A DNA stretch of 64,000 nt from Calditrichota bacterium (lineage in GTDB: Bacteria; Zhuqueibacterota; Zhuqueibacteria; Zhuqueibacterales; Geothermadaptataceae), in contig QQUE01000002.1 of assembly GCA_008501765.1 (NCBI GenBank), positions 1,052,336 through 1,116,335 on the forward strand, read 5' to 3'. Below are positions 9,751-17,742 of this stretch, one piece after another (position 1 is the stretch's first letter; each line of letters starts with the position of its first letter). The notes under the pieces were generated by a model that had not been told where the DNA came from, searched no databases, and saw nothing but the letters and a program-made list of their open reading frames with translations. Both the position numbers and the translations under genes were made by a program.

Positions 9751-11424
9751 TTATTTTTCGATTATGGGCAAAATTAATCCGGATTTCCTCTTACCGCCAT
9801 AATAAATATAATTGACTGCCGTAATTTGACCATCATTGCGATGCAATGCTTTTGGCAAATTGGGATTGGGCTCAAATTTGGGACTGTTGCTGCTGGTGAT
9901 TGTGATCCGGAGTTGATGTCCAGCCTCGAAGACGTTGGCTGTATGTCCCAAATCTATGAGATATTTTTCCACTTTATGTGGTTCGAGCAATTCAGATCGC
10001 TGCATTGTGTTGCGATGCCGGGCTCGAATGATGCCCTCTGAAAGCAGAATTGATCTGCCGTCGGGATAAACATCGCACAACTTGACGGCAAAATCTGTAT
10101 CCCGTGCCGAGCTGGCGGCGAATAGTTGAAACCGCAGCGGGCCCGCCACCGTCAAAGCAGTTTTCAGCGTATCACTGGAAAATACCAGCACTTCATCCAA
10201 TTGCTCGATCGCGCGTTGGTCCATTGGGCCGGAGGGCAAATAATAGTTTGCACCACCCAAAGTCTGCACAGGAATTAGCGGATCGTAGCGAAACGCTTCT
10301 GCATTACCGTTTTTTTCGGCTTCATCCAGCGCAAGCGTTCCGTTATGTTTTAAATAGTATTTTTTATAGCGTGCATTTTCTGGTGGCCATGACGTGGCGT
10401 CAATCCATTTATTGCCGGTACCGTTTGGTGCTTCGGCATCCCCCATCAAGTAATATTTTATTTTATCTTGTTGGACTATTTCCCGCAGCGACAATGAGTC
10501 TGATGGCGCATTTTTTAACCAACGATCAAAAAATTGCATGGCATGGGATAAAAAGTCAAATGTGCTGTTTTCTGGGAAAACCATTTCAGCTTGCTGCTTT
10601 CGTGAGTAACTTGCCGGATCTTGCCTCCACGGTCCAAGAATTAAATACTGGTACAATTTTCCCGGTGTATTGCCATTCACAGCAATGGAACGATGCGCTG
10701 CAACTGTCCCCGAAACGAAGGGTTGGAACCACCCGCCAATGTGGCAAATTGGAATATCGACACTTTTAACGCTTCTTTTGTTCGCCAGTGGGTCCCAGAA
10801 AGATGATGCGTAAGGGCTGAGTTCAAATGTATGAAGCAGGTATTTTGCCCCAATTTCCTTGGTCCAGTTTTCGAGGAAATTTTTGCGATACACACCACCC
10901 GGAAAAGCCACGTCGGCGAAAAAATTATAGGGTGCAGCGAGGATATATTCAGCCTGCAAATAACGATGATTTGTTGTCGCCAAAAGGTGTGCGAGAAAAC
11001 CATCAATGCCAAAACCAAATCCACCGACTTTTTTATTGCTCCAAAATTGGGTGCCCATCCAATCCAACGTCGCAGCACCATCCTGCAAATCCCCGTTTCC
11101 ATCTGTCAGAAAGAACGACTCTTTACCCGTCGATTCTTCGTTGCCACGGGTGTATTGAACCACAAAGTTATAACCATGCCTCGTGAAAAAATCAGCCGCG
11201 TCTGCATATTGTTGAAAAGGCGTTTTAGTACGTACTAAAATGGACGGTCGTGGCAGGCTGTCTGCAGGTTCCGGCCTGAAAACATAGGTCGCAAGCCGGG
11301 TACTATCGGTAAGCAATACCGTATGTTTTTGCATGTCAGATGCAGATGAGCTGATATATCCAATAAAAAATAAAAAAAAGAGGCATAACTGAAGGCTGCT
11401 TTTCCTCATGAAAAGTCTTAACAT
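9751..11424 (-). CDS. CocE/NonD (S15) family protein lacking the catalytic triad; probable pseudoenzyme
   Basis: This 557-residue exported protein has the full CocE/X-Pro dipeptidyl-peptidase architecture: an alpha/beta-hydrolase domain, a helical insert and a C-terminal jelly-roll domain (RDTDFAVKLCDVYPDGR, ending in LPIIEK). All three catalytic positions are changed relative to Rhodococcus cocaine esterase. The nucleophile Ser of G-V-S-Y-L-G is Gly139 (G-F-G-I-D-G), the Asp of GGWYD is Gln234 (GGWFQ), and the His of GPWSH is Gln268 (GPWRQ). The reading frame is intact and the flanking motifs are well preserved, so this is not simple decay. A binding or structural role is inferred. The signal peptide is near residues 8-28. 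Confidence 0.88.
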   Translation of the reverse strand: MLRLFMRKSSLQLCLFFLFFIGYISSSASDMQKHTVLLTDSTRLATYVFRPEPADSLPRPSILVRTKTPFQQYADAADFFTRHGYNFVVQYTRGNEESTGKESFFLTDGNGDLQDGAATLDWMGTQFWSNKKVGGFGFGIDGFLAHLLATTNHRYLQAEYILAAPYNFFADVAFPGGVYRKNFLENWTKEIGAKYLLHTFELSPYASSFWDPLANKRSVKSVDIPICHIGGWFQPFVSGTVAAHRSIAVNGNTPGKLYQYLILGPWRQDPASYSRKQQAEMVFPENSTFDFLSHAMQFFDRWLKNAPSDSLSLREIVQQDKIKYYLMGDAEAPNGTGNKWIDATSWPPENARYKKYYLKHNGTLALDEAEKNGNAEAFRYDPLIPVQTLGGANYYLPSGPMDQRAIEQLDEVLVFSSDTLKTALTVAGPLRFQLFAASSARDTDFAVKLCDVYPDGRSILLSEGIIRARHRNTMQRSELLEPHKVEKYLIDLGHTANVFEAGHQLRITITSSNSPKFEPNPNLPKALHRNDGQITAVNYIYYGGKRKSGLILPIIEK

Positions 11425-12183: not shown

Positions 12184-12412
12184 TCTTTTAAGATACTCGT
12201 CCGCTTAAATGCCAACACCCATCCCCAATTTAATACCCGCATAGCCAAAACCCACCTTGGAGCCTGTGTTTTTGTTTAGATTTATTTTAATTTTTCTTGC
12301 ACTTTTCCTTTTTGTATAGCACATTAAAATATTACTTTTATAAAGATTTATCGCATTTTTGTATGCTCGTGATTTTTCCCAAAAATCGAAAACATATTTG
12401 AATTTAATATTT

Positions 12413-13942
12413 ATGAATGAAATCGATCAGCGCATCTGGAAACTGGAACACCAGGTTTTTCAATTACAAACTTTGTTTGAAACAGCACGTTCCCTCAATC
12501 AGGCGCGCAATCCGCAACAAATTTATGAACAAATTCTTGCAACAATGGCTGGAACTTTTGGCGCCCGCGAGGCCCTGGCCTTGCTAAATGAGGATGACCA
12601 GTGGCACGTCGTCGCCAATCGGGGAAATATTAAAAATACGGAAAAAATTGCCGCCGATCTAAAACACGCACAGTTTCAGGGTGCGACAACCCGCGATCAA
12701 CAAAAAATTCTCACCGAGCTTGTTACCAGCACCAATCTCAGCGATTCAACTTTTACGCTATGGCACGTAATTAACGTGCGTGACGAAATGGTCGGCGGAT
12801 TTTATTTCGGGAAAAAAATTATTGGCGAGCCCTATTCCCGCGAAGACGAAGATTTGCTGCGTACAGCCGTCAGTTCTGCAGCCCATGTGTTAGAAAATTT
12901 GCACCTTTATTCCGAGCTGGAGCAAGCTCGCGAGCGGCTGGCAGTCGAAAATCTAACCCTCAGGCAACAGGTGCGCAAAGAAATGCCATCGACGGATATT
13001 ATCGGTGCCAGCATCGCTATGCAAAAAGTACATGAAAATATTGATAATTTTGCAAAAAGCGATGCCGCCGTGATAATTCGTGGCGAAACAGGCACTGGTA
13101 AAGAGCTTGTTGCCCGTGCTATCCATTATCAAAGTCCGCGGGCAGACGGGCCGTTTGTTGCAATCAATTGTACGGCGATTCCGGAATCACTGGTTGAATC
13201 TGAGTTTTTCGGGATAGAAACCGGAGCGGCAACGGGGGTCACGAAAAGAATCGGCTATTTTGAGCAGGCACACAGCGGCACTATATTTATTGATGAAATT
13301 GGCGATATGCCTTTGAGTTCTCAGGCAAAAGTATTGCGCACTTTGCAGGAACGCACAGTCCGGCGAGTTGGTGGTTTGAAGGAAATTCACGTCGATGTGC
13401 GCATCGTTGCGGCAACCCATAAAGATTTGAAGGAAGAAATAAAAGCCGGCCGGTTTCGCGAGGATTTATATTATCGTATTGGTGTGCTTGAGATTCACAT
13501 TCCTCCATTGCGGCAGCGATTAAATGACATCGCCATTCTCGCCACTCATTTTTTGTCAGAAAAAGAAAGTAAAGTTGGCCGGGCGCTTAAGGGATTCCGG
13601 CCGGATGTATTGAAAATTTTGCAAAAATATGACTGGCCGGGAAACGTTCGGGAGCTCGAAAATGAAATCGAGCGTATTGTGACGCTGGCGGATGACGGCG
13701 ATTTTGTGGAAGAGCATCATTTATCACCCCACATTGTTAATGACACGGAGCCCGGGCAGGATGATGAACTTTTTCTGGAAAATTTACGGGATGCAGTAGA
13801 TCGCCTCGAAAAACGAATGATTCATAAGGCGCTTTCCGAGTGTAAAGGAAATAAAAGCGAAGTGGCGCGCATCCTTGGTTTAAGCCGCTTGGGTCTGCAG
13901 AAAAAAATGAACCGGCTGAAAATCTCTGAGAAGGAAATCTAA
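12413..13942 (+). CDS. GAF-AAA+-Fis transcription activator with degenerate GAFTGA loop
   Basis: This 509-residue protein follows the bacterial enhancer-binding protein plan. A GAF sensory domain (about 20-165) leads to a short coiled linker, then an AAA+ domain (about 193-425) with Walker A G224-ETGTGKE-231 and Walker B FIDEIGD. A C-terminal Fis-type HTH ends it (GNKSEVARILGLSRLGLQKKM). The sigma-54-contacting GAFTGA loop reads GAATGV (271-276), losing the key Phe, so sigma-54 activation is doubtful. The start at 12413 gives a normal N-terminus; upstream codons are AT-rich leader. Its stop overlaps the next gene's ATG by one base, making it the first gene of the partner-switch operon. It has no receiver domain, so input is probably by GAF ligand or protein contact. 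Confidence 0.88.
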   Translation: MNEIDQRIWKLEHQVFQLQTLFETARSLNQARNPQQIYEQILATMAGTFGAREALALLNEDDQWHVVANRGNIKNTEKIAADLKHAQFQGATTRDQQKILTELVTSTNLSDSTFTLWHVINVRDEMVGGFYFGKKIIGEPYSREDEDLLRTAVSSAAHVLENLHLYSELEQARERLAVENLTLRQQVRKEMPSTDIIGASIAMQKVHENIDNFAKSDAAVIIRGETGTGKELVARAIHYQSPRADGPFVAINCTAIPESLVESEFFGIETGAATGVTKRIGYFEQAHSGTIFIDEIGDMPLSSQAKVLRTLQERTVRRVGGLKEIHVDVRIVAATHKDLKEEIKAGRFREDLYYRIGVLEIHIPPLRQRLNDIAILATHFLSEKESKVGRALKGFRPDVLKILQKYDWPGNVRELENEIERIVTLADDGDFVEEHHLSPHIVNDTEPGQDDELFLENLRDAVDRLEKRMIHKALSECKGNKSEVARILGLSRLGLQKKMNRLKISEKEI

Positions 13943-15441
13943 TGAATCTGCGAACGAAACTAAGCCTGGTTGCATTGGTTGAAGTTGTGGCCACGGTGTC
14001 AATCATCGGATATTTAGCCCTACAGCAATCAAAAGAAGAAACAGAATCGCTTTCACGGGAGATTTTGCGGGCACGGACAGATTATGCTTTTGCTCTCTGC
14101 GAGCGATACCATGCCACAGACGGCAAGCCAACAGGTGAACTGCACAGCCGGATAAAAGCCATCCATATTTTTGATGAGGGCTACATAACAGTTATTTCCA
14201 TGGCTGATTTAAATAAAGGGGAATTGGTAATTCATCCAAATAGTGAGGGTGAAATTGTGCTCGACCGGATAAAATTTCCCCATATACAAGCCATATTTGA
14301 TGAAATTAATGCCGGTGGTCGCCAGCACGGAACCGATAAATTTCATGAATATTTTCAGGGAACGAATGCCCGGGGCCGGCAGGGTGAGGCCAAGTTGGGA
14401 TATTATCGCTATTTTGCACCCTGGGATTGGGTGTTGCTGACCTCCAGTTACCGGGCGGATGTTTACTCCAGCACAAATGTAGTCCGTCAGCGCATTCTGG
14501 AAGTTATTTTGGTCATCGGCCTTCTTTCACTTATCATTTTAAATCTAACAGTACACCATATGCTGCGGCCGTTGCAGGAATTAATAGCCGTGACAAAAGA
14601 AGTGGCAGCAGGCAATCTTGATGCAACAATCCAGATTCAAACAAAAGATGAGATTGGCGGTTTGGCAAGTCATTTTAACGAAATGCTTTCCGGTTTGAAG
14701 CAAAATACACGTGTCTGGCAAGAGCTGGCGATTGCCCGCCGTTTGCAAAGTGAAATGCTGCCCCAGGGCCGACCAGAAATTCGCGGAATTGATATTGAGG
14801 CGCGATCAATTCCAGCCACAGAAGTCGGTGGGGATTTTTATGATTTTGTTTTTCTCGATGAGAATCGACTCGCAATCGTCGTGGGCGATGTTTCGGGCAA
14901 AGGTATTTCCGGTGCCATGGTGATGAGCAGCGCAATGAGTGCCCTGCGATTTGCTGCTGATGAAAGTAAAGACACCGACAATATTCTCGAATTGGCAAAT
15001 CGCCGCCTGGTCCGGGACATTCAACGGCACATGTTTGTTGCTGTTTTTTTAGCAATTTATGACCGTCGAAAACAAACATTGTTTTATACCAATGCCGGGC
15101 AGACAATGCCTATTCTGTTTAAAAAGGGTGGCTGTGATTTTCTGGAACAATCGGAAGCAGACCGTTTCCCCCTCGGTATTCGCGCTGATGTTCGCTATTC
15201 ACAAAAGTCGCTGAAAATGAAACCCGGCGAACTTTTAGTGTGTTACACCGATGGGGTTGTAGAGCTTTTTAACGATAAACGGGAAGCTTATGGATTTGAC
15301 CGATTCAAGAAATCGATCAATACACACGCTGAAAAACCGTTACCCAAGCTGCTCTCAGCGTTACTTGAAGATGCGAATAATTATGTAAAGGATGTTCCGT
15401 ATTCTGATGATGTGACGATCGTACTGATTAAAATCGCTTAA
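13942..15441 (+). CDS. Membrane Cache-HAMP-PP2C (SpoIIE-type) serine phosphatase
   Basis: This 499-residue sensor phosphatase has a transmembrane helix near residues 7-27, then an extracytoplasmic Cache-like domain ending YYRYFAPWDWVLLTSSY. A second helix spans about 184-204, a HAMP domain about 205-257, and a SpoIIE/RsbU-type PP2C domain about 285-499. Metal-binding aspartates are visible in VGGDFYD (Asp298), VVGDVSGKG and YSDDVTIV. Such enzymes dephosphorylate STAS-domain antagonists, here presumably the product of the gene two downstream. It overlaps the AAA+ activator gene by one base and precedes the RsbW-like kinase by 21 bases. The periplasmic ligand is unknown. Confidence 0.92.
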   Translation: MNLRTKLSLVALVEVVATVSIIGYLALQQSKEETESLSREILRARTDYAFALCERYHATDGKPTGELHSRIKAIHIFDEGYITVISMADLNKGELVIHPNSEGEIVLDRIKFPHIQAIFDEINAGGRQHGTDKFHEYFQGTNARGRQGEAKLGYYRYFAPWDWVLLTSSYRADVYSSTNVVRQRILEVILVIGLLSLIILNLTVHHMLRPLQELIAVTKEVAAGNLDATIQIQTKDEIGGLASHFNEMLSGLKQNTRVWQELAIARRLQSEMLPQGRPEIRGIDIEARSIPATEVGGDFYDFVFLDENRLAIVVGDVSGKGISGAMVMSSAMSALRFAADESKDTDNILELANRRLVRDIQRHMFVAVFLAIYDRRKQTLFYTNAGQTMPILFKKGGCDFLEQSEADRFPLGIRADVRYSQKSLKMKPGELLVCYTDGVVELFNDKREAYGFDRFKKSINTHAEKPLPKLLSALLEDANNYVKDVPYSDDVTIVLIKIA

Positions 15442-15462
15442 TCAAAAAAGGTTAATTTAAAA

Positions 15463-15936
15463 TTGACAGTGTCAATGAACCAGACAGAAATTCAATTATC
15501 AATTCCAGCCCGTTTGGGTTTCGAAAAAATTGCCATGGAAACCGTGGTTTCGCTAGCAGCTTTGCACGGCTTGCCATCAGCCAGATTTAGCGATGTGCGA
15601 ACGGCCATTTCAGAGGCGTGTATAAATGCAATGGAACATGGGAATAAATTTGCGCGCGGTACCTCGGTGGAAATCCATATGCGTGTGCAAAGGAGAAATC
15701 TGCAAATAGATATTCTTGATTTAGGGAAAGGGTTAAAAGGGCCTCTGGTGCAGCCGGATTTACAGCGCAAACTCGCAGGTGAAGAATCTCCTCGAGGCTG
15801 GGGCGCATATTTGATCGAAAAACTGGTCGACGATGTGCATTATTTTTATCATAAAAAGCGAAATGTGACGCAACTCTCGTTTAAATTACCCGGTAAACGT
15901 CAGAATAAGATAAACGAAGCAGTTCCACAAGTTTGA
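15463..15936 (+). CDS. RsbW/SpoIIAB-like anti-sigma serine kinase (GHKL ATPase)
   Basis: This protein of about 157 residues has the GHKL ATP-binding fold of anti-sigma serine kinases. The N box is AISEACINAMEHGN with Glu51 and Asn55, the G1 box is LDLGKGL, and the G2-like region is RGWGAYLIEKLVDDV. In partner switching, this kinase phosphorylates a STAS antagonist and otherwise binds its target. The start could be TTG at 15463, about ten bases after AAAAGG, or ATG at 15475; TTGACAGTGTCAA around the start is a small palindrome. No sigma factor gene is adjacent, so the bound target is open; the AAA+ activator of the same operon is a candidate. Confidence 0.9.
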   Translation: MTVSMNQTEIQLSIPARLGFEKIAMETVVSLAALHGLPSARFSDVRTAISEACINAMEHGNKFARGTSVEIHMRVQRRNLQIDILDLGKGLKGPLVQPDLQRKLAGEESPRGWGAYLIEKLVDDVHYFYHKKRNVTQLSFKLPGKRQNKINEAVPQV

Positions 15937-15985
15937 AAAATGACAACCATATACAGTGCTGAGTGGCGTAATAAAGGAGAAGCGA

Positions 15986-16327
15986 GTGCAAGGTTTTCAG
16001 GTTAAAGTTGAAATTGACAACCCCAACGCAGTTTTCAATATGAACGGGGATCTAACTCATGAATCACAAAAGCGAATGTTGGATGCCTACGAAAAAGTAG
16101 TCTCCAGTAAAATGCAAAATATACTGCTCGATTTTTCACATGTCGATTATATCAATTCCGCAGGCATGTCTGTGATAATCACGATTTTGACGAAAGCTCA
16201 AAATGCGCAGCAGGCGCTTTTTGCATGTGGCCTTTCACAGCATTTTCAAAAGATATTCGATATGGTTGGTCTGTTAAAATATATGCCACATTATGACACA
16301 AAAGATGAAGCCATGAAGAATATTTGA
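15986..16327 (+). CDS. STAS-domain anti-sigma factor antagonist
   Basis: This 113-residue single-domain STAS protein is of the SpoIIAA/RsbV type. The conserved phosphorylatable serine is Ser58 in YINSAGMSVI, and the following ILTKAQ/FACGLSQHFQKIFDMVGL pattern is typical. The GTG start at 15986 is supported by AAAGGAG at 15973-15979, six bases upstream; a GTG at 15956 opens the same frame without such a site. It is the last gene of the four-gene module and completes the phosphatase-kinase-antagonist set. Phosphorylation by the adjacent kinase and dephosphorylation by the PP2C protein are inferred from family knowledge. Confidence 0.92.
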   Translation: MQGFQVKVEIDNPNAVFNMNGDLTHESQKRMLDAYEKVVSSKMQNILLDFSHVDYINSAGMSVIITILTKAQNAQQALFACGLSQHFQKIFDMVGLLKYMPHYDTKDEAMKNI

Positions 16328-16494: not shown

Positions 16495-17742
16495 ATGATT
16501 TACATACCAGTTCGTTTTCGTCAAATTGGCCTCATAACAAGTTGTATTGCCTTCCTGTTTTTATCGTGCTCACCAATAAAAAACAGGCTCCACAGAGAGC
16601 ATCCATTTCCAATTGTGGCCGCGCAGGATCGTGTTTTAGCAGATAGCGATTCTACCATTTCAGATTTGGTGCCGGCCGCACGCGACAGCATTGATAGACT
16701 CATGGCGGTCGCGATAGCCGACAGCGTTTTTCCGGGCGCAGTCCTGCTGCTCACCAAAAATGCGAGGATTGTATATCATCAAGCCTTTGGAAATTATGGG
16801 TACGGTGATTTTGCCCGCCCACTTGAAAAAGATGCCATATTTGATTTGGCATCGGTGACGAAAGTGATCGCAACCACCTCCGCTGCAATGGTGCTCGTCG
16901 GGGATAGTTTGCTCAGCCTTGACGATAAAGTTTCGCAATATATCCCGGAATTTGGCTTTGGGAAGAAAAAAGAAATAACAATTCGCCACCTCATGACGCA
17001 TTCGTCCGGCCTGCCGCCCTACATTCGATATTTTTTAGAGGGTTTGTCCGCTGAAAAAATTAGTGAAAGAATTTTTAACGAACCACTCATTTATGATCCG
17101 GGAACTGCCTATAAATACTCTGATTTGGGGATGATCACGCTTGGCAAAATAATCGAGAAAATCAGCGCAACAACACTCGACCGTTACTGTTTTGAAAAAA
17201 TATTCCAACCCTTGCAGATGAAAAATACATTTTTTAATCCTCCACCTGTATTATACGCAAAAATCCCGCCCACGGAAAATGATGACTGGCGCGGCCGCAT
17301 GATTCACGGGGTTGTGCATGATGAAAATGCCTTTGCTTTGGGTGGTGTCGCGGGGCATGCCGGACTTTTTAGCAATGCAGCGGATTTGGCTGTATTTTTA
17401 CAAATGCTTTTAAATGGTGGAGTTTATAATTCACAATCTGTGCTGGCTCTGCCAGTTATTCAGCAATTTGTGCAAAAACAAAAAACGGTCAAAAAGAGCA
17501 CCCGGGCGCTGGGATGGGATACACGCAGTAAAAAAGGCAGCACCAGCGGCGATTTAATGAGCATGTTTGCTTTCGGGCATACCGGATTTACCGGTACTTC
17601 TGTCTGGGTCGATCCGGCAAACGATTTATTTATAATTCTGCTAACAAACCGTGTGCACCCAACGCGGAAAAACCGGCGCGTCGTTAAGTTTCGTCCACAA
17701 TTGCACAATCTAATTATGAGCAACTTGGAAAAAAGCGATTAA
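16495..17742 (+). CDS. Serine hydrolase of the beta-lactamase/class C fold, lipoprotein
   Basis: This 415-residue protein has a signal peptide with lipobox FLSC (Cys25) and the class C/DD-peptidase catalytic set. It shows Ser120-V-T-Lys123, Tyr208-S-D, and His362-T-G replacing KTG. HTG in the third motif is typical of esterase and PBP4B/AmpH-like members rather than true beta-lactamases. It probably acts on peptidoglycan or ester substrates at the outer surface or periplasm. It lies 167 bp after the partner-switch operon, on the same strand, but no terminator is clear between them, so co-transcription cannot be excluded. Confidence 0.9.
   Translation: MIYIPVRFRQIGLITSCIAFLFLSCSPIKNRLHREHPFPIVAAQDRVLADSDSTISDLVPAARDSIDRLMAVAIADSVFPGAVLLLTKNARIVYHQAFGNYGYGDFARPLEKDAIFDLASVTKVIATTSAAMVLVGDSLLSLDDKVSQYIPEFGFGKKKEITIRHLMTHSSGLPPYIRYFLEGLSAEKISERIFNEPLIYDPGTAYKYSDLGMITLGKIIEKISATTLDRYCFEKIFQPLQMKNTFFNPPPVLYAKIPPTENDDWRGRMIHGVVHDENAFALGGVAGHAGLFSNAADLAVFLQMLLNGGVYNSQSVLALPVIQQFVQKQKTVKKSTRALGWDTRSKKGSTSGDLMSMFAFGHTGFTGTSVWVDPANDLFIILLTNRVHPTRKNRRVVKFRPQLHNLIMSNLEKSD

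Follow-up and report, generated by a model that had tools for sequence, protein, structure and literature searches.

A CocE-fold protein of candidate division KSB1 that is conserved without its catalytic triad and is probably a non-catalytic binding protein

Proteins that retain the α/β-hydrolase fold without a functional triad and fulfil a non-catalytic function have been described in animals, the neuroligins, glutactin, neurotactin and the thyroglobulin domain being named in the accessible part of PMC5943944. These neuroligin-type proteins are cholinesterase-like and have known roles. In the CocE/S15 family, we noticed no description of a pseudoenzyme in the open full-text literature, a scope outside of which most subscription papers lie. 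The active site of the cocaine esterase CocE is documented by the 3I2K structure, for which the available section of PMC7034887 gives Y44, S117, Y118, V121, F261, L407 and H287 as the residues contacting the ligand. The protein analyzed here, pseudo-CocE, differs from the neuroligin type in its bacterial origin, its CocE-type architecture and its jelly-roll domain. It is encoded in the window, the whole stretch of 64,000 nucleotides under analysis, which belongs to a family of candidate division KSB1, proposed as phylum Zhuqueibacterota (PMC11683472, in the part available). The KSB1 genome paper PMC9012183 makes no mention of CocE in its accessible portion.

The initial annotation had reported an open frame of 557 codons at positions 9751-11424, and this frame holds, running from ATG to TAA with zero internal stops; it lies on the minus strand, a point the annotation had left unstated. 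Profile analysis of the product reports hits above the curated cut-offs with TIGR00976 (CocE_NonD; 285 bits, cut-off 66.3), PF02129 (Peptidase_S15; 96.2 bits, cut-off 23) and PF08530 (PepX_C; 136.6 bits, cut-off 22.5). The nearest solved sequence returned by phmmer is CocE, and the likeness to CocE (PDB 1l7q, 1ju3, 3i2j) and to TIGR00976 extends to domains and fold. The features, in window coordinates, are as follows.

9751-11424, minus strand: gene of the CocE-fold pseudoenzyme, 557 residues (open frame, TIGR00976 match, CocE fold match)
11338-11424, minus strand: signal-peptide-like hydrophobic N-terminus, residues 1-29 (by eye; helix 9-21 in the model, at low pLDDT)
10858-11307, minus strand: α/β-hydrolase domain, best PF02129 stretch, residues 40-189 (profile match)
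9775-10458, minus strand: jelly-roll domain, PF08530 PepX_C, residues 323-550 (profile match)
11221-11223, minus strand: Thr68, aligned with the oxyanion Tyr (Tyr44 of CocE; multiple alignment)
11008-11010, minus strand: Gly139, codon GGC, replacing the nucleophile Ser (alignment columns)
10723-10725, minus strand: Gln234, codon CAA, replacing the acid Asp (alignment columns)
10621-10623, minus strand: Gln268, codon CAA, replacing the base His (alignment columns)
10243-10245, minus strand: Tyr394, aligned with the ligand-contact Leu (Leu407 of CocE; multiple alignment)

In the phmmer alignment, Gly139, Gln234 and Gln268 face CocE Ser117, Asp259 and His287, respectively (CocE residues being counted by hand along this alignment), and the Ser-Asp-His triad of CocE-type serine hydrolases is thus absent. 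Likewise, the oxyanion-hole Tyr of the RTPY motif, also present in CocE, is replaced by Thr68; since CocE Tyr44 is unpaired in the phmmer alignment, it was placed via the RTPY motif of the multiple alignment. The claim of the initial annotation that this is a CocE homologue with all three triad residues replaced is therefore borne out by the phmmer alignment, by the family alignment and by the spacing of the columns. The Ser and Asp columns are 94 residues apart in the window protein and in all five other family rows, and the same distance is found in 15 of the 19 intact relatives of the phylum (93 residues in two, 129 and 152 in two distant ones); the Asp and His columns are separated by 27-34 residues. 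This fixed spacing supports the assignment of the triad columns. The stretch from Ser to Asp is ~47 residues shorter in the window protein than in CocE (94 vs 141); that such a shortening of the cap marks the clade was considered and rejected, since active relatives share the 94-residue spacing.

Structure prediction and superposition on CocE, the check that had been proposed along with the claim, confirm the fold. The AlphaFold2 model of the window protein, computed from a 60-row alignment, has a pLDDT of 92.3 and a pTM of 0.90, and matches CocE 1l7q over 501 residues (VIA superposition; Z 44.4, rmsd 1.9). In the model, strand 129-138 turns into helix 140-149 at residue 139, the place of the nucleophile elbow; the loops that follow strands 226-231 and 259-264 hold residues 234 and 268, respectively.

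The pseudo-CocE gene is present in 6 of the 7 genomes of the window's family, the seventh being 67% complete; this sample covers three genera only and several of its assemblies are fragmented. The triple loss sought across the family was found in part. The Ser column reads G, D, G, G, N and H and the His column Q, I, G, G, R and R, both residues being gone in 6/6 members, while Asp is replaced, by Gln, only in the window's genus (2/2) and is kept in 4/4 members of the other two genera. Within the window's genus, the residues at 139 and 268 differ between its two species. In the family genome G005, two contigs share the gene between them, with a 294-bp overlap of their ends at 98.6%.

Outside the family, the triad is the rule. 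Among 82 genomes searched in the rest of the phylum, 21 further relatives were aligned at E <1e-50; the 19 that cover all three positions keep Ser, Asp and His, and the fragments L024 and L048, in which the Ser position is not covered, have Asp and His. Ten more distant loci (L026-L034 and L036) contain all three residues, by eye. A wider scan of one genome per species (84,980 species), with the alignment as query, yielded at least 568 confirmed relatives, the best 80 of which were analyzed and overlap in part with the phylum set (L064 vs L014). Two of these best 80 of 568 (L060 and L061) duplicate family members already in the set; of the 78 non-family loci, 77 keep S/D/H. In the Verrucomicrobiota locus L118 (6001-7500), a short in-frame deletion removes the nucleophile Ser (GRVVTIGGITQN) and Asp and His are kept, which points either to an inactive copy that arose independently or to an error of the assembly. 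A single-protein query of the same genome collection returned 12 pattern matches, none of which was confirmed as a relative, and a plasmid search returned 376 records, every one at <60% identity.

With the triad columns left out of the tree, the six family sequences form one clade with a support of 100/100 (24 of 27 rows), the sister position of this pseudo-CocE clade being an open fork. The simplest history would be one ancestral loss of Ser and His before the three genera split, with Asp lost later on in the window's genus.

The changes are focused on the old active site. A set of 113 columns shows conservation in at least 90% of the 80 active rows; 77 of these columns stay the same throughout the family (26/51 in the hydrolase part and 51/62 in the jelly-roll part), and at 10 every family row departs from the conserved residue (67, 68, 91, 139, 140, 143, 257, 268, 394 and 493). 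The CocE contacts Y44, S117, Y118, V121, F261, L407 and H287 were mapped by hand along the phmmer alignment to columns 68, 139, 140, 143, 236, 394 and 268, respectively. Six of these seven positions are among the 10 family-changed columns of 113 (hypergeometric P 5.6e-7). With Ser and His set aside, as the residues by which the finding was selected, 8 changed columns of 111 still include four of the five remaining contacts (P 5.7e-5). At the oxyanion column, 77 of the 80 active rows have Tyr and the other 3 a gap, and the family rows that cover it have T, S, E, E and V; column 394 holds Leu in 73 of 80 active rows and Y, F, V, V, F and F in the family. The description of the surrounding motifs as intact applies only in part, changes being found also in the RTPY motif, its oxyanion Tyr included, and at most of the remaining ligand contacts. 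Five residues past the oxyanion column, Tyr73 (11206-11208) is invariant in the family rows and occurs in 1% of the active rows.

These columns bear on whether the protein retains enzymatic activity through a catalytic center that has moved or changed, for example by Asp or His acid/base chemistry near the old pocket. Retention of Asp234 in 4/6 family members is compatible with such a center, as are an invariant His228 and an Asp located two residues past the lost Ser in 4/6 members and one residue past in the other two. However, the catalytic columns offer no nucleophile or base common to the family, nor does the family retain the oxyanion Tyr and the contact shell. Moreover, only two His columns (228 and 503) are invariant in the family and both are common in active relatives, the frequency of His228 there being 0.68; as far as the alignment and the superposition go, an intact triad elsewhere in the pocket is not indicated. 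We regard a retained enzymatic activity as unlikely. The pocket residues differ between genera, which makes it less likely that the family has a new reaction or ligand in common at the old pocket.

The latter point also concerns a former active site turned into a ligand-binding receptor site, in which binding would be achieved by the old pocket and not by the jelly-roll. In favor of such a site, the contact-shell residue F236 is found in every row, and the α/β domain is kept under purifying selection (codon-model omega 0.144). Yet pocket residues vary even within the window's genus, at 139 and 268, and the hydrolase part is the faster-evolving part of the protein, which makes a receptor pocket improbable as well. 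The codon-model omega of the whole pseudo-CocE clade is 0.113, with 0.086 for the jelly-roll, as compared with 0.116 (hydrolase 0.120, jelly-roll 0.108) and 0.131 (0.128 and 0.113) for two overlapping active groups. The hydrolase/jelly-roll branch-length ratio, taken from a fixed protein tree of 20 of the 27 rows, is 1.54 for the pseudo-CocE clade (bootstrap 1.31-1.91) and 1.01, 1.14 and 0.75 for three active clades; the pseudo-CocE clade has the higher ratio in 59, 56 and 60 of 60 bootstraps, respectively, 4/60 failing to separate the pseudo-CocE clade from one active group. The raw hydrolase-versus-jelly-roll identity differences (-0.114 for pseudo pairs and -0.067 for active pairs, in the larger set) overlap widely, the tree-based ratio being the better test of a domain shift. 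Since the ratio of the clade lies above those of the active clades, constraint has moved, moderately, towards the jelly-roll.

Purifying selection keeps pseudo-CocE in its inactive form. Over 511 codons, the members of the closest pair (L009/L010) differ at 33 codons by a synonymous and at 4 by a non-synonymous single-base change, one codon with several changes being set aside (P 7e-17 vs neutrality), and dN/dS amounts to 0.05-0.064. For L011 and L012, dN/dS is 0.02-0.06 where computable, with saturated dS. For the window's own pair, with L008, NG86 and YN00 fail over the full length and maximum likelihood gives 0.10 at a dS of 2.0; selection on the window's genus rests on less because the synonymous changes of this pair are saturated. 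With the fold kept and dN/dS far below 1, the proposal of the initial annotation that selection retains the gene for a non-catalytic role is supported, the non-catalytic nature of this role being what we infer from the lost residues.

That the gene is decaying, or is a product of assembly error or misalignment, could be suspected from the fragmented assemblies and the split G005 gene, but is scarcely credible. The closest homologues also lack the triad, which runs against an intact family with one decaying copy; the same loss recurs in three genera, zero in-frame stops are found inside the family matches, and purifying selection acts on the gene. On these grounds, together with the open frame, the 77/113 unchanged columns and the fixed spacing of the triad columns, pseudogene, artefact and misalignment were rejected.

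Regarding export, pseudo-CocE is compared with the CocE-type proteins of the phylum that bear a type IX secretion (T9SS) tail (L013, L014, L042 and others), which share 35-37% identity and the same column spacing with it. Unlike pseudo-CocE, these proteins keep Ser, Asp and His and carry a C-terminal sorting domain, the T9SS domain TIGR04183 being over the cut-off at the C-terminal end of the active L013 and L042, the only pair tested by profile. Similar C-terminal tails are seen by eye in most other phylum relatives, with the exception of L024, L049 and L050, and many of the wider-scan relatives (among the best 80 of 568) have no long tail. The profile search reports no TIGR04183 match in the window protein, which ends with the jelly-roll alignment, and the family members end 0-4 residues past this domain. 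The 7 family genomes give 68-150 TIGR04183 matches each, up to 150 candidates being scored per genome, and G000 has at least 150. Judging from its signal-peptide-like N-terminus, assigned by eye, pseudo-CocE would be exported by Sec and retained in the periplasm.

The pseudo-CocE gene is convergent with a gene for an M49 dipeptidyl-peptidase III, an order conserved in G001. Beyond the gene start, at 12359-16324, a divergent cluster encodes a sigma-54 activator, a Cache-HAMP-SpoIIE phosphatase (13942-15438), an RsbW-like kinase and a STAS protein. In both genomes of genus g2, the pseudo-CocE gene is likewise divergent from this sigma-54/SpoIIE cluster and located 2-3 kb from it, and in the two genomes of genus g3, on short contigs, it has other neighbours. 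In g2, a DUF3108 protein is encoded between pseudo-CocE and the sigma-54 cluster, on the pseudo-CocE strand (L056 867-1835; L052 8360-9214). Further along the window, at 16495-17739, lies a stand-alone β-lactamase-fold protein (best NCBIfam match PBP4B, below cut-off); in G005, its counterpart (L056 7991-10930) follows a GH3 domain within one fusion protein. Of the 15 genomes of the order, 14 have the phosphatase and, because several of these are devoid of pseudo-CocE, the link between the two is only suggestive. It is very doubtful that pseudo-CocE, having lost catalysis and the T9SS tail, was recruited as a periplasmic sensing or adaptor partner of this phosphatase; if true, a former secreted esterase would feed a partner-switching/sigma-54 control circuit.

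No same-subfamily paralogue was found in the window's genome, which contains one match to the window protein, at E 0.001; its five other PF02129 matches are S9-type peptidases with an intact GxSxG, by eye. A role as regulator of an active same-subfamily paralogue was therefore rejected. A distant CocE-like protein of G003 (L037, 28% identity) keeps Ser, Asp and His, by eye.

Since the catalytic residues are lost while the family copies are kept by selection, a binding role is most likely, and not that of an enzyme. We assign a probability of about 0.72 to pseudo-CocE being a conserved, exported, non-catalytic CocE-fold binding protein, that is, a pseudoenzyme. Ester hydrolysis would no longer be possible, and the protein would bind an envelope partner or ligand, chiefly by its jelly-roll, with the α/β domain as a scaffold. 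Profile annotation would name it a CocE/NonD hydrolase, which, judged by its sequence, it very probably is not; it is best classed as a CocE-fold pseudoenzyme. The active relatives, the members devoid of Ser, His and the oxyanion Tyr, and those in which Asp is lost as well would then form a natural series that may lead from a secreted bacterial esterase to a binding protein.
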